Origin: Nymphaea colorata
Taxonomy: Eukaryota > Streptophyta > Magnoliopsida > Nymphaeales > Nymphaeaceae
Direction of reading: 5' to 3'
NCBI RefSeq assembly: GCF_008831285.2
Contig: NC_045149.1
Span: 17,375,035 to 17,439,034, forward strand
DNA length: 64,000 nucleotides
In this document: positions 8,592 through 49,693 of the stretch, piece by piece
How positions within the stretch are numbered: the first letter of the stretch is position 1
Layout: the number at the start of each line of letters is the position of its first letter
The notes under the pieces: model-generated
The model's database searches: none
What the model was told of the DNA's origin: nothing
What the model saw: only the letters and a program-made list of their open reading frames with translations
Made by a program: the position numbers and the translations under genes

Positions 8592-8852
8592 TCAATGGCC
8601 AACGCCAGGGCTGTGGCCAGGAGTTGTGGGGCGAAAGTTCTCCACGTATGTGTCTTCAGCCATGCGCACATGGCGGTCAAGTGCATCAGTTGCAGGTTTT
8701 ACAGACACATGGTTTGTAGGAGGAGCCATTGCTGCTGAACTGATTGGCAGCAGTTCGTTCGAAGCCATTAGACGCCTCCCCTCGCATGGAGGAAGGATTA
8801 TCGTGATTGAGATGAACAGGGCAATGGCAACAAGGAAGAGCTTGGAAGCCAT
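8592..8852 (-). CDS. CEP: CEP peptide-hormone precursor, single domain
   Basis: This 86-residue precursor belongs to the C-terminally encoded peptide family of secreted hormones. In model plants these act through CEPR leucine-rich-repeat receptor kinases in nitrogen and root-growth signalling. Residues 1-25 form a hydrophobic signal peptide ending at CEG, followed by the basic GRRL that is typical here. A variable spacer follows. Residues 72-86 are the CEP domain NFRPTTPGHSPGVGH, placed exactly at the C-terminus with the stop directly after the final His. The gene is intronless, as is usual in the family. The start is an ATG aligned with the MAS(K/R) start of the paralogues, and a TATA box lies about 85 bp upstream. 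It is the leftmost member of a minus-strand CEP cluster. Family identity is firm; the specific role is not known. Confidence 0.93.
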   Translation of the reverse strand: MASKLFLVAIALFISITIILPPCEGRRLMASNELLPISSAAMAPPTNHVSVKPATDALDRHVRMAEDTYVENFRPTTPGHSPGVGH

Positions 8853-8935
8853 GAAGCTAGCTAACTATTCTCCGAATGCACTAAACTCTCTTGTTGCGAA
8901 GGAAGCAGTGTGAGAAACACATAAGAGAAGTTGCG

Positions 8936-8946
8936 TATTTATAGAG
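8936..8946 (-). promoter_or_regulatory. TATA box of the CEP gene at 8.6 kb
   Basis: CTCTATAAATA on the minus strand, about 85 bp upstream of the ATG. The same motif precedes nearly every CEP copy in this window. Confidence 0.8.
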
Positions 8947-9037
8947 TTGGGAGACGCCCCAAGAGTCTGGAGGCCTTTTACTCTCTTTTCTCGACTGTCA
9001 AAAAATTTTAACAAAAAGAAGCATATGAAAAGGCTGT

Positions 9038-9083
9038 AAAGGAGCACTAAGGTTCTGTGGTAGATCCCTGCTGCAACTCTGTA
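9038..9083 (-). promoter_or_regulatory. Conserved upstream block A (CEP at 8.6 kb)
   Basis: The plus strand reads GTTCTGTGGTAGATCCCTGC, then TGCAACTCTG. Near-identical blocks occur upstream of the TATA boxes of the CEP genes at 15.3 and 26.7 kb while the surrounding spacer has diverged, so it is a candidate cis-regulatory element. Confidence 0.6.
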
Positions 9084-9420
9084 CACTTTCTCACCATATC
9101 TCTCGTCTTCCATCACTGCCCTTGGTTGCAGTAGATCAGAGAAAAAAGGGAAGCCACAGGCGTGGTAGAAACCAGCTTGGCTCATAACAAAGAGAGGACA
9201 TGCGTTTTAATCACTCCTTGAAATAAGCTTGGCCAAACCGAGAAACAGTAACAGGTGCTCAACTTGGATCACATGGGCCTGTGAAGTTATTAGTATTGTA
9301 GTATTTTAAACATGTTACTTCACGTAGTTGATATAAGATAACCTCTAAGCATTTAGTTTCTTACATAAATAAGTTAATTTACAGAAGTCTAAGATAAGGT
9401 TTACATGTTACTTTCATATC

Positions 9421-9459
9421 TATATATATATATATATATATATATATATATATATATAG
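9421..9459. repeat. (TA)n microsatellite
   Basis: About 19 TA units upstream of the first CEP gene. Confidence 0.95.
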
Positions 9460-9858
9460 AATGAGCTTAGCTTGGTTTCCTGCTGTTCATCATCACATAA
9501 ACATGGCAAGCTAGAACACAACATGGTCAGTTCTTTTTCCCTTAACTACCTTACTGGCTAGCCTTATGTGAGAAAGAAAGGGAGAGAGTCCAAGGAAGGA
9601 ATTTTAGCATGGCAAAGATTCTAGTGAAGATTCTAAAAGGACAGGAAGGAAAGGGATGCACATAGTTTAAGAAGGAAGGCATGCTGAGGAGTGGGGAAGG
9701 GCAGATTTTGAGCATTAGATATTTAAATATAGAAAAACTATAGACCACCAGCACCACCGCCAGTCCACTACCTTCGATAGCATTATCAACTTGGTCCGGC
9801 CGTCCCTGTCTCTCCAGCTCCCCTCTTCTCCTCCCTACCATTAGAAGGCAACACATAT

Positions 9859-46922: not shown

Positions 46923-47290
46923 TAAAGGAAAAACAAAAGAAATGCTCGAGTTAACAAGGTTCGGTTCAAAGAGAACCTACATCCATGAAGAAGAAAAATG
47001 ATTTTTTTCTATTCAGCCACACTCACTCTTACACGACTTGGGGTTTCCTTCCACTACACAACTATTTATAATAGTTTTTGGATAAGAAGAATTAATTCTA
47101 AATCCCTTGGTATCTAAAACGTTTCTCTTGGAATCTAAAACGTCTTTCTTGATTTGTGAAACGTTTCTCTTGGTTCCCAAAATGTCTTCATCCAAGATGC
47201 CTTCATTCTTTGCCTTTTCGTATTCTCCAATTTGCTTCTCCCCAAATCTGCATAGCTCGAGATGAGGATTCATCTCATCACGTCTTTTAA
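46923..47290 (-). repeat. 5' LTR (whole or partial) of the copia element
   Basis: It lies upstream of the primer site and ends where CEP-promoter homology begins (about 47291). It contains four imperfect roughly 21-bp repeats around 47100-47190 of the type CTTGGAATCTAAAACGT. Its exact 5' end cannot be verified because the 3' LTR is missing. Confidence 0.6.
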
Positions 47291-47414
47291 GCACCACGCT
47301 GGTGAAGCATAAGTACTTATAGAGGAGGCAGAGCAGCTCTAGTGAGGACTTCCATGGTAAAAATGGACTGAAATTCAGGACTAAATTCTGTTTTCCAACG
47401 AATTTCAGCCGTCC
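47291..47414 (-). promoter_or_regulatory. Orphan promoter of a lost single-domain CEP gene
   Basis: Homology to the promoter of the CEP gene at 28.1 kb starts at about 47291 (AGCACCACGCTGGTGAAGC). It includes an intact TATA box (CTCTATAAGT, 47315-47324) and conserved block C (47368-47414). The coding region expected to the left is absent, replaced by the copia LTR. If still active it would transcribe into the LTR. Confidence 0.8.
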
Positions 47415-48553
47415 AATGTTTCAACCATTAATGCCCTTTAACTAAGAGGAGTTTCTATCACCACCATCAACATTTTTTTCTTTCGAAAGAAATATATGTC
47501 CTTGCTTGTTGCTTTAGTTGATCAAGAGTGGCCCCCCTAGTTGATTCATCTTAAATTTTAATTCCCTTAAAAAAATCTAATTTATTGCACTTTTCCTAAA
47601 TACAATCAACTCACGATGCTCCTGATGTTTGGCGGCAACAGTTCATCCAAACAGGGTAAGGTCTTAAACGAAAGTATTGAATCGAAGGCCATTAATTTTT
47701 AGTGTTTGCTGTCAAATGACGAACCCATGAGGAAAACATGAATATGGTGATGGTTCGGAACACTGCATTATTCGGTTTCTATCGCTTCCTTGTGTTCTGA
47801 GATAGCTGCCATCATCTGCTTATGGTTGATAAGATCGAGATTAATGAACACCAGATTTCCCTGTTCCTGTAAACTCTAAAAGATCATGAGTTTGGTGCTT
47901 GACGAGCAGTGCTCGCCCCTTTCTTCCCTTCTCTCTGACATTTGTATTTCATTTAGCTATGGCGGTGGTAGTCGTGGAAAGTCATGGGGACAATTCATTC
48001 GTTTCTGCTTGGTCCATAACTATGGAGTTTGATTAATTCCATTGAAGAATTTGGTGGCCTTCATCACAACCTTCCGGTTGAGTCCAGTTGGGATTCATTA
48101 TTCTCAACTATGATGGATGTCCATCTAAAATATTGTAGAACACCCATTAAAGTAAACCTACAGCGAGCGTCGTTAGCAAGGTTGGACCGTTGGATATTGA
48201 CGTTGCTTGAAAGGGCCTTTATCTCGTGGATGACCTTTTAATGCAAATTTAATTGCTAAAATTATTTGATCTCATGATGAATATTCCTCCTATAACCTGA
48301 AGATACAAGACGCGTAGAAGATTATCAATTAACAGATACCAAGAAATGCAAGATCTGCAAATTACTTCATTAATTCAACTTCGAAATGGATGAATCTCTT
48401 GGAGGGTGTACCGGAAAACATTTGCAAACTCTCACAAGACTGGATATATATTCCTTTTGCAGCCAATTATCTGGTTATCAACTTGTGCATGCTTGGCTTC
48501 AAGTTCTCGTGATATTCAATACCGTGCTTCTAAGTAGAACTAGTCGTTGCAAC
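47415..48553. other. Array spacer, no gene recognised
   Basis: Third copy of the spacer seen at 28620-29828 and 38591-39887. Confidence 0.7.
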
Positions 48554-48690
48554 ACTTCAGATTTACTGGCACAGACTATTTAAAGATGATTCTTCAGAAT
48601 AACTGATATTTAGTCAGCAGGTACTTCAGATTTACTGGCACAGACTATTTAAAGATGATTCTTCAGAAGAACTGATATTTAGTCAACTAA
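48554..48690. repeat. 69-bp tandem duplication
   Basis: The unit starting ACTTCAGATTTACTGGCACA occurs at 48554 and again at 48623, nearly identical. The equivalent positions in the other array copies have one unit, so this is a recent local duplication. Confidence 0.88.
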
Positions 48691-48775
48691 ACCACATCGC
48701 TTCTCACAAACAGCATGCAGAAGCATAATGAAGCACTCAGAAGCAAATAGACAACCAGCACCAGGAGTGTGTGTC

Positions 48776-48807
48776 TCACACAGACACACATACACATATA
48801 TATATAG
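48776..48807. repeat. (CA)n(TA)n short tract in the 3' region
   Basis: The shortest and most interrupted of the four tracts beside the stop codons of multi-domain CEP genes. Confidence 0.8.
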
Positions 48808-48808
48808 T

Positions 48809-49693
48809 TCAATATTGCCCATCATGAGGATGACCAACACCGGGGCTATGGCCGGGATTTGTAGGGCGTGAGTCATCTAAGAACACCTTTTGAACCAAAC
48901 GCTCTTGCCCAAGGGCTTTTGGAGTTGGTGAAACTGCATGGTCTTCATCGGGGTTGTGGCCAGGAGTCATGGGGCGAGAATTGTCCAAAAGCACCTCCTG
49001 AACCATGTTCTCTTGTCCAAAAGCTCTTGGTGGCGGCATAGCATGACCTACGCCAGGGCTGTGGCCAGGAGTTGTAGGGCGAAAATAGTCCAAGGCGGCT
49101 CTTGGTGGCATAGGTTGTCCTATGTTGGGGCTGTGGACCGAAGTTGTAGGGCTAGAATTGTCCAAAACTGCCTCCTGAACAATGTACTCTCGTCCAAAGT
49201 CTCCTGGTGGTGGCATGACATGGCCAACGTCAGGGCTATGGCCAGGAATCGTTGGGCGAAAATAGTCTAAGGTGGCACTTGGTTGCATGCGATGGCCAGT
49301 GCTGGGGCTGGGGCCAGGAGTTACAGGTTGAGAATCTTTCAAGAATGCCTTCTGCAGCATGTGCTCTTGCCCAAAGATGCTTGGTGGTGGCATGACATGG
49401 CCGACCCCGGGGCTGTGGCCGGGAGTTGTAGGGCGAGAATCGTCCAAATGTGCCTCCTGAACCATGCGTTCTCGTCCAAAAGCTCTTGGTGATTTCTCAG
49501 TCGCACCACTCTCTTGCGCGGTTGCCCCGCTGCTTTTCCCTTCTTGGCATCCAGTAGAAGCAGTATCCATGACTGCCACACTGGGCAGCAGCTCTCTGGG
49601 GAAGATGAGGCGCTTCCCCTCGCATGAGAGGAATGTGCATGAGCTGAGCAAAGCGATGGCGAGAAAAGAGATTACTACTGGTCTGGAGGCCAT
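48809..49693 (-). CDS. CEP: Multi-domain CEP precursor, seven repeats
   Basis: This 294-residue intronless CEP polyprotein is laid out as in its paralogues: signal peptide 1-26 (MASRPVVISFLAIALLSSCT, then FLSCEG) and units at 85-99, 120-134, 144-158, 179-193, 203-217, 238-252 and 274-288. Units 1, 5 and 7 are canonical. Unit 3 has SPDVGH, one change from canonical. Even units are altered (QPVTPGPSPSTGH, SPTTSVHSPNIGQ and RPMTPGHNPDEDH). The final unit RPTNPGHSPGVGH is identical in all four multi-domain genes and matches the TNPG variant known from Arabidopsis CEP1-type peptides. TATA box and block C are intact. It is probably functional. Confidence 0.92.
   Translation of the reverse strand: MASRPVVISFLAIALLSSCTFLSCEGKRLIFPRELLPSVAVMDTASTGCQEGKSSGATAQESGATEKSPRAFGRERMVQEAHLDDSRPTTPGHSPGVGHVMPPPSIFGQEHMLQKAFLKDSQPVTPGPSPSTGHRMQPSATLDYFRPTIPGHSPDVGHVMPPPGDFGREYIVQEAVLDNSSPTTSVHSPNIGQPMPPRAALDYFRPTTPGHSPGVGHAMPPPRAFGQENMVQEVLLDNSRPMTPGHNPDEDHAVSPTPKALGQERLVQKVFLDDSRPTNPGHSPGVGHPHDGQY

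Follow-up and report, generated by a model that had tools for sequence, protein, structure and literature searches.

How does a gene for one small peptide hormone come to carry many copies of its active domain, and would the enlarged precursor still release them? This question is raised by a 64,000-nucleotide stretch of the Nymphaea colorata genome (C12:17375035-17439034, hereafter the window), in which canonical (group I) CEP hormone genes have expanded in tandem to form a cluster. Ordinary in kind, the cluster combines genes with a single CEP domain (S1-S4) and genes for polyproteins with six or seven (P1-P4). Taken as a whole, we find it highly probable that it is a tandem array of group I CEP genes whose P precursors, derived from an S4-like gene, would each release several CEP peptides. 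The intact genes are the following.

8592..8852, minus strand: S1, single-domain CEP precursor of 86 amino acids, NFRPTTPGHSPGVGH followed by the stop (open reading frame (ORF) and motif scan)
15280..15597, minus strand: S2, single-domain CEP precursor of 105 amino acids, DYRPTSPGHSPGVGH (ORF and motif scan)
26737..27066, minus strand: S3, single-domain CEP precursor of 109 amino acids, EFRPTTPGHSPGVGH (ORF and motif scan)
28127..28438, minus strand: S4, single-domain CEP precursor of 103 amino acids, DARPTTPGHSPGVGH (ORF, self-comparison, domain listing)
29877..30761, minus strand: P1, CEP polyprotein of 294 amino acids with seven domains (ORF, protein alignment)
33800..34612, minus strand: P2, CEP polyprotein of 270 amino acids with six domains, D4 and D5 being fused (ORF, protein alignment)
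39973..40857, minus strand: P3, CEP polyprotein of 294 amino acids with seven domains (ORF, protein alignment)
48809..49693, minus strand: P4, CEP polyprotein of 294 amino acids with seven domains (ORF, protein alignment)

Together these ORFs span 8592-49693 (41 kb) and in all eight a single exon carries the frame from the ATG to the stop codon, as judged from the DNA alone. The first-pass annotation had counted eight intact CEP genes on one strand within about 41 kb, four of them polyproteins of 270-294 residues, along with one pseudogene, one decayed relic for which it gave no coordinates and an orphan promoter; all eight genes were recovered on the minus strand, and a remnant of each of the three kinds was located (see below), which bears out the count of ten loci plus an orphan promoter.

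The domains themselves identify the family. In a six-frame scan with a 14-residue CEP motif that listed scores of 6 and above, the minus-strand domains of the cluster scored 7-14, and the reversed window reached a maximum of 6, at 12 places. The S genes encode 4 CEP-like domains and the P genes 27, or 31 in total. Of these, 18 keep the strict core P..PGHSPG[VI]GH (one per S gene, four each in P1 and P3, three each in P2 and P4), so that 14 of the 27 P-gene domains have it and the remainder are divergent; these core-bearing domains are of group I type, the group whose domain stays near the original 15-residue consensus with Pro4, Pro7 and Pro11. Among the genes found here the 15-mers YFRPTIPGHSPGVGH and YFRPTTPGHSPGVGH are confined to the P proteins, and YFRPT[IT]PGHSPGVGH forms likewise occur in P proteins and in none of the S genes. 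By hydropathy, every one of the eight proteins has an N-terminal hydrophobic stretch (11-residue mean 2.67-3.13, at most 1.63 elsewhere) that looks like a signal sequence. Between signal and domain lies a variable region: its nonsynonymous/synonymous ratio is about 0.89 in the P genes, and similarity outside the domain is low among the S genes and the one related gene found elsewhere in the genome. Beyond the last domain there are 0-6 residues in all eight. A TATA box is present in each intact gene, as CTCTATAAAT in seven and as CTCTATAAGT in S4. Database searches added nothing to this assignment: Pfam returned no CEP family for the eight proteins, all listed matches falling under the curated cut-offs; a PDB sequence search with S3 only gave four matches (E 0.19-0.27), all bacterial cytochrome subunits, which we take as chance; and a scan of viral contigs with P4 found no relatives. 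We also considered a WPTPGLWPGVVG-like antisense motif on the plus strand as a coding signal, and rejected it as the mirror of the CEP codons, with 4-15 stops across the three antisense frames of each P gene.

Where did the polyproteins come from? Over about 500 bp, the 5' part and upstream region of each P gene are 70.6-72.0% identical to S4; likewise, the 3' end and downstream sequence of P match the S4 3' end (for example 27940-28237 against 29716-29990, 70%). Because S4 matches both ends, P is best understood as an S4-like gene expanded in its middle through multiplication of the domain region, and a shared origin of the P genes with the adjacent S4, their nearest single-domain relative, is the reading best supported by the sequence. 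We propose that P arose when a unit of spacer plus domain was duplicated repeatedly inside an S4-like gene. The units come in two lengths, about 35 and about 24 residues, and the 177-bp period of the tandem repeat holds one of each; since this long-plus-short repeat was itself duplicated, no special mechanism has to be invoked for good and bad domains to alternate. In a tree of the 81-nucleotide domain units, grouping follows position and not gene: D2, D3, D4, D6 and D7 each form separate groups, the D1 copies lie together and so do the D5 copies, but with other groups nested among them. The fused domain of P2, in which 72 bp were lost in frame between D4 and D5, groups with D4. Since units cluster by position, the seven-domain layout most likely predates the gene copies, which probably means that a gene with seven domains already existed when copying of whole genes began.

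Does selection maintain what was multiplied? The alignment of P1, P3 and P4 is gap-free, and P2 differs from them by a single 72-bp in-frame gap, whereas the 600 bp of 3' flank hold 4-5 frameshifting indels in each of the six pairs. The absence of frameshifts in the coding parts rests on equal lengths and on the gap-free protein alignment. By simulation, four frames would stay open under substitutions alone with a probability of 0.001-0.009. When substitution events are counted once per codon over the four sequences, domains of the same protein behave differently. D1, D3, D5 and D7 show 11 synonymous and 4 nonsynonymous events (nonsynonymous/synonymous ratio per site 0.13, bootstrap 0.03-0.35, p = 0.0002 against neutrality), and D2, D4 and D6 show 6 and 24 (ratio 1.23, bootstrap 0.53-3.93, p = 0.83), a difference with a Fisher p of 0.0009. 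Some of this contrast is built in, because the split was defined from the motif. D7 is identical in all four copies and D1, D3 and D5 are nearly unchanged. Outside the domains, spacers have 15 synonymous and 28 nonsynonymous events (ratio 0.56, p = 0.07), the variable region 9 and 26 (ratio 0.89) and the signal region 2 and 8 (ratio 1.36). Within one protein, therefore, D1/3/5/7 look constrained and D2/4/6 look neutral. Upstream, 238 of the 250 bases from -51 to -300 are invariant in all four P genes; with the TATA box, this stretch suggests promoters kept by selection or homogenised by conversion.

To explain these results we propose that each P precursor would enter the secretory route and be processed to three or four active CEP peptides of 15 residues, and that D2, D4 and D6 may be by-products no longer maintained by selection. 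Canonical CEPs are secreted, hydroxyproline-modified 15-mers perceived by CEPR1/CEPR2; the released peptides would likewise signal through receptor kinases of the CEPR type, in the context of nitrogen demand, roots or immunity, and the array would raise the peptide dose per transcript and per locus. Several points weigh against this proposal. A basic residue follows none of the 10 canonical internal domains and only 3 of the 23 internal domains overall, all three of them D2 copies of the divergent sort. Across 66 other plant genes, single or di-basic residues are significantly enriched after internal CEP domains, an enrichment and not a strict rule (PMC5103176). With canonical internal domains lacking such a residue, release of the internal copies is uncertain. 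The P gene as a whole is weakly constrained (43 synonymous and 90 nonsynonymous events, p = 0.033), and its signal and variable regions look neutral. A conserved glycine is gone from D3 of P4, and in the fused domain of P2, which was counted with D5, Ser replaces Pro7, so that decay reaches constrained positions too. Finally, the coding alignment was built from proteins and so allows whole-codon gaps only, and the domain tree has 81 bases per unit, midpoint rooting and support values that were not inspected. As for cutting signals, we infer two candidates, the conserved V/A-M/I-PPP that follows the domain and the ..LD[DNY] that precedes it.

The missing basic residues would suit an alternative in which the terminal domain D7, placed as the domain of a single-domain CEP is, would alone be released and the internal domains would be passengers of repeat expansion: all 10 canonical internal domains lack the residue, and D7 is the domain that is the same in all four copies. 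Passengers, though, should not differ among themselves, and D1, D3 and D5 stay nearly unchanged while D2, D4 and D6 drift neutrally in the same proteins. This weakens the alternative, which we judge unlikely even though recent exchange among D1/D3/D5/D7 units could mimic constraint on the domains.

Could D2, D4 and D6 instead mature as new or antagonistic ligands under diversifying selection? Their ratio does lie slightly above 1 (1.23), but with its bootstrap range of 0.53-3.93 and p = 0.83 it is not different from neutrality. Moreover, the changes strike Ser10 (D4 of P1 and P3, D6 of P4) and Gly14 (D6 of all four, D2 of P1), as well as Pro7 and His15 (D4 of P1, P3 and P4). The first two residues were tested in apple CEP1, where Ser10 to Cys strongly weakened activity and where, according to the body text, roots were still inhibited with Gly14 to Ala alone; the abstract of the same article speaks of function lost upon mutating Ser10 and Gly14 (PMC6387203). 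Diversified ligands are thus quite improbable, and we return to release of several CEP peptides from D1, D3, D5 and D7 as the preferred reading.

How did one seven-domain gene become four? Self-comparison reveals an outer repeat unit made of an S gene, a P gene and an upstream MYB gene, and an inner repeat within the first outer copy that gave P1 and P2.

28117..38110, minus strand: outer duplication copy A, with S4, P1, P2 and a 5'-truncated MYB copy (self-comparison)
38106..43047: outer duplication copy B (self-comparison)
47290 onward: outer duplication copy C (self-comparison)
38106..38110: outer duplication junction, the interior of MYB exon 2 (52870) joined to S-gene 3' flank (28117), with shared ATAAT
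33177..33182: inner duplication junction (P1/P2), 36536-like joined to 29282-like sequence, with about three shared bases
36452..38110, minus strand: MYB copy, 5'-truncated and with a broken frame, cut at the outer duplication breakpoint
43048..47289, minus strand: broken Copia-type retrotransposon ORFs (ORF translations, self-comparison boundaries)
51944..53360, minus strand: R2R3-MYB gene of three open stretches that resemble exons and are bordered by GT/AG, adjoining the array upstream

The breakpoint sequences are consistent with tandem duplication, which also predicts the pattern seen in the MYB genes, where the outermost alone looks complete and the inner copy is cut at the breakpoint. 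The apparent completeness of the outermost MYB refers to its three open stretches taken one by one, of which the first exon was compared with Pfam. Between copies B and C, the retrotransposon stretch occupies the place expected of a MYB copy and an S gene body. Its name, Copia, is a reading of ORF translations only, and self-comparison (matches of at least 60 bp, E up to 1e-8) revealed no terminal repeats around 43048-47289. We envision that the seven-domain gene and its core promoter were copied through two kinds of tandem duplication, an outer and an inner one, and that genes were later lost at the retrotransposon stretch.

Aligned flanking blocks of the copies differ by 6-13% (K 0.06-0.14), and the 1.2 kb upstream by 8-22%, most in pairs with P2 (K 0.20-0.26, against 0.09-0.12 in other pairs). 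The copies have diverged and are therefore not one sequence counted repeatedly. At a common plant rate of about 6.5e-9 per site and year, K 0.06-0.14 would correspond to something of the order of 5-10 million years. The nearest neighbour changes from one flanking block to another, so the copies have probably exchanged sequence, and a simple age ranking of P1-P4 cannot be fixed from the sequence. The least probable account is that the polyproteins are recent duplicates without function, still open in frame through shortness of time, or that the array is an assembly artefact. Weak whole-gene constraint would suit the former, but coding parts lack the frameshifts in which flanks are rich, and constrained and unconstrained domains differ. 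We rejected the artefact because the window is free of N and the copies have diverged, differ in their junctions and in one case are separated by a retrotransposon stretch.

Two further observations concern the surroundings. Downstream of P4, 48554-48685 holds two copies of a 63-69-bp repeat that are 98% identical, more alike than the duplicated array segments, which indicates a recent local duplication. Beyond the MYB gene and on the opposite strand, 57018-58688 (plus) is an ORF of 556 amino acids with a Pfam match to xyloglucan fucosyltransferase (E = 1.2e-50), a possible synteny anchor.

The array also holds remnants and upstream elements.

38119..38410, minus strand: S4 pseudogene, marked by an in-frame TGA, the loss of 17 bp, the motif changed from PG to AA and an altered TATA
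21831..22277, minus strand: decayed single-domain CEP relic, with a distal upstream element and a signal-peptide/GRRL-like fragment (sequence matches)
9855..9922, minus strand: distal upstream element of S1, 84% identical to the S2 element (self-comparison)
16132..16201, minus strand: distal upstream element of S2 (self-comparison, query scan)
27604..27647, minus strand: distal upstream element of S3 (query scan)
47290..47686, minus strand: orphan promoter of S4 type at 92% identity, gene body absent (self-comparison)

In the pseudogene the 17-bp deletion shifts the frame, and the change from Pro-Gly to Ala-Ala falls inside the CEP motif. The orphan promoter is explained by the retrotransposon stretch, which stands where the S gene body is expected. 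The signal-peptide/GRRL-type fragment of the relic is, taken alone, a weak match. As to the distal element, a scan of 424 overlapping tiles on both strands with a 130-bp S2 query that contains it scored 81 at S1, 53 at S3 and 52 at the relic; S2 itself aside, the best other place scored 25.

Is the array one CEP locus among many? We searched the 408-Mb source genome (407.8 Mb, 783 contigs), in which all counts of matches are lower bounds. A pattern search for PG[HN]-x-PG[V/A/I/M/T]G[HN], with x mostly Ser, found at least 21 places with up to one mismatch, 20 in the window and one at C12:7.705 Mb (reversed control 2). With two mismatches allowed there were at least 33: 24 in the window, the same one at 7.705 Mb and eight elsewhere, which we treat as chance because the reversed control gave 15. 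Of these eight, the one inspected (L033) has no ORF of at least 40 amino acids over the match. In protein searches, at least 33 of 35 matches to S4 (E up to 10) fell in the window, with one at 7.705 Mb and one weak match on C1 (E = 4.8), and for S3 at least 26 of 27 fell in the window and one at 7.705 Mb. The place at C12:7.705 Mb (L001, 1480-1812) is a single-domain CEP ORF of 110 amino acids with AFRPTYPGHSPGVGH, the sole other canonical CEP gene among the matches listed. Eight of the nine canonical CEP genes found in the genome thus sit at one locus. For comparison, 13 canonical CEP genes are reported in Amborella, and an angiosperm mean of 1.36 domains per gene is given in the same source (PMC4197245). 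The single Nymphaea passage drawn from PMC11756074 is a table row ahead of IDA/IDL, and that row does not name CEP.

The group II-type end pattern (P-Ser-PG[VIM]GH, then stop) occurred at one place, on C9, with no wider group II survey made. There (L069, 1395-1757; C9:4.587 Mb), an ORF of 120 amino acids has a signal-like start and, adjacent in another frame, the PSPGVGH-stop end, so that this may be a group II CEP gene that has been broken or wrongly assembled.

What does the locus add? It keeps the steps of an expansion side by side: the likely ancestral type S4, the expanded gene, its later copies, the in-frame loss of a domain in P2, a gene decayed to a pseudogene and a promoter that has lost its gene. 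That the same protein holds both constrained and neutral domains provides an internal control for short peptide hormones, and this can guide the choice of synthetic peptides. If nearly all canonical CEP genes do lie here, most CEP signalling would be lost with a single deletion, something out of reach where the family is spread over several chromosomes, and redundancy would become directly testable. We offer only tentatively the fuller picture in which a near-whole canonical repertoire, gathered or retained at one locus, is combined with a polyprotein that raised output there and arose separately from those of Arabidopsis and apple, a non-basic release site (Gly-His, then Val/Ala-Met/Ile-Pro-Pro-Pro) and an alternation of selected and discarded copies.

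In Arabidopsis, the multi-domain CEP9 lies apart from the CEP5-8 tandem genes, whereas here the multi-domain genes themselves form the tandem array. The five domains of the CEP9 precursor (PMC11649690) and the tandem arrangement of AtCEP5-8 (PMC11050269) otherwise each have a counterpart in our locus. Cotton, too, has canonical CEP clusters of more than three neighbouring genes, attributed to duplication, and genes within one cluster tend toward similar expression; in the tetraploids, however, 20-21 chromosomes carry CEP genes and G. barbadense has six clusters (PMC11050269), against eight of nine at one locus here. Apple MdCEP4, MdCEP5 and MdCEP10 have five to seven domains per precursor, as the P genes do, among MdCEPs of 75-250 amino acids (PMC6387203). 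The linkers differ: apple linkers have KFTNVET in common (PMC6387203), and those of the P genes are MPPP...FG.E..(V/I)QE..LD or of a short MQPSATLD type, the apple group 2 KFTNVET linker not being found in their domain flanks or protein alignment. Even the CEP effectors of Rotylenchulus reniformis are multi-domain, with up to four tandem domains per precursor, but their genes have introns and a di-Arg after internal domains, and those here have neither (PMC5103176). The first-pass annotation had thus rightly stated that some plants have CEP tandem clusters, and its reading of a one-directional series from spaced single-domain genes to multi-domain precursors is supported by the sequence, which also preserves to a large extent the order in which things happened. 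Its word striking fits the concentration at one locus and the selection split more than the existence of the array, because CEP clusters and multi-domain CEPs were already known. With precursors of 5-7 domains on record, what the Nymphaea locus contributes is the gathering of genes at one locus, a polyprotein whose origin can be seen and the contrast in selection within it.

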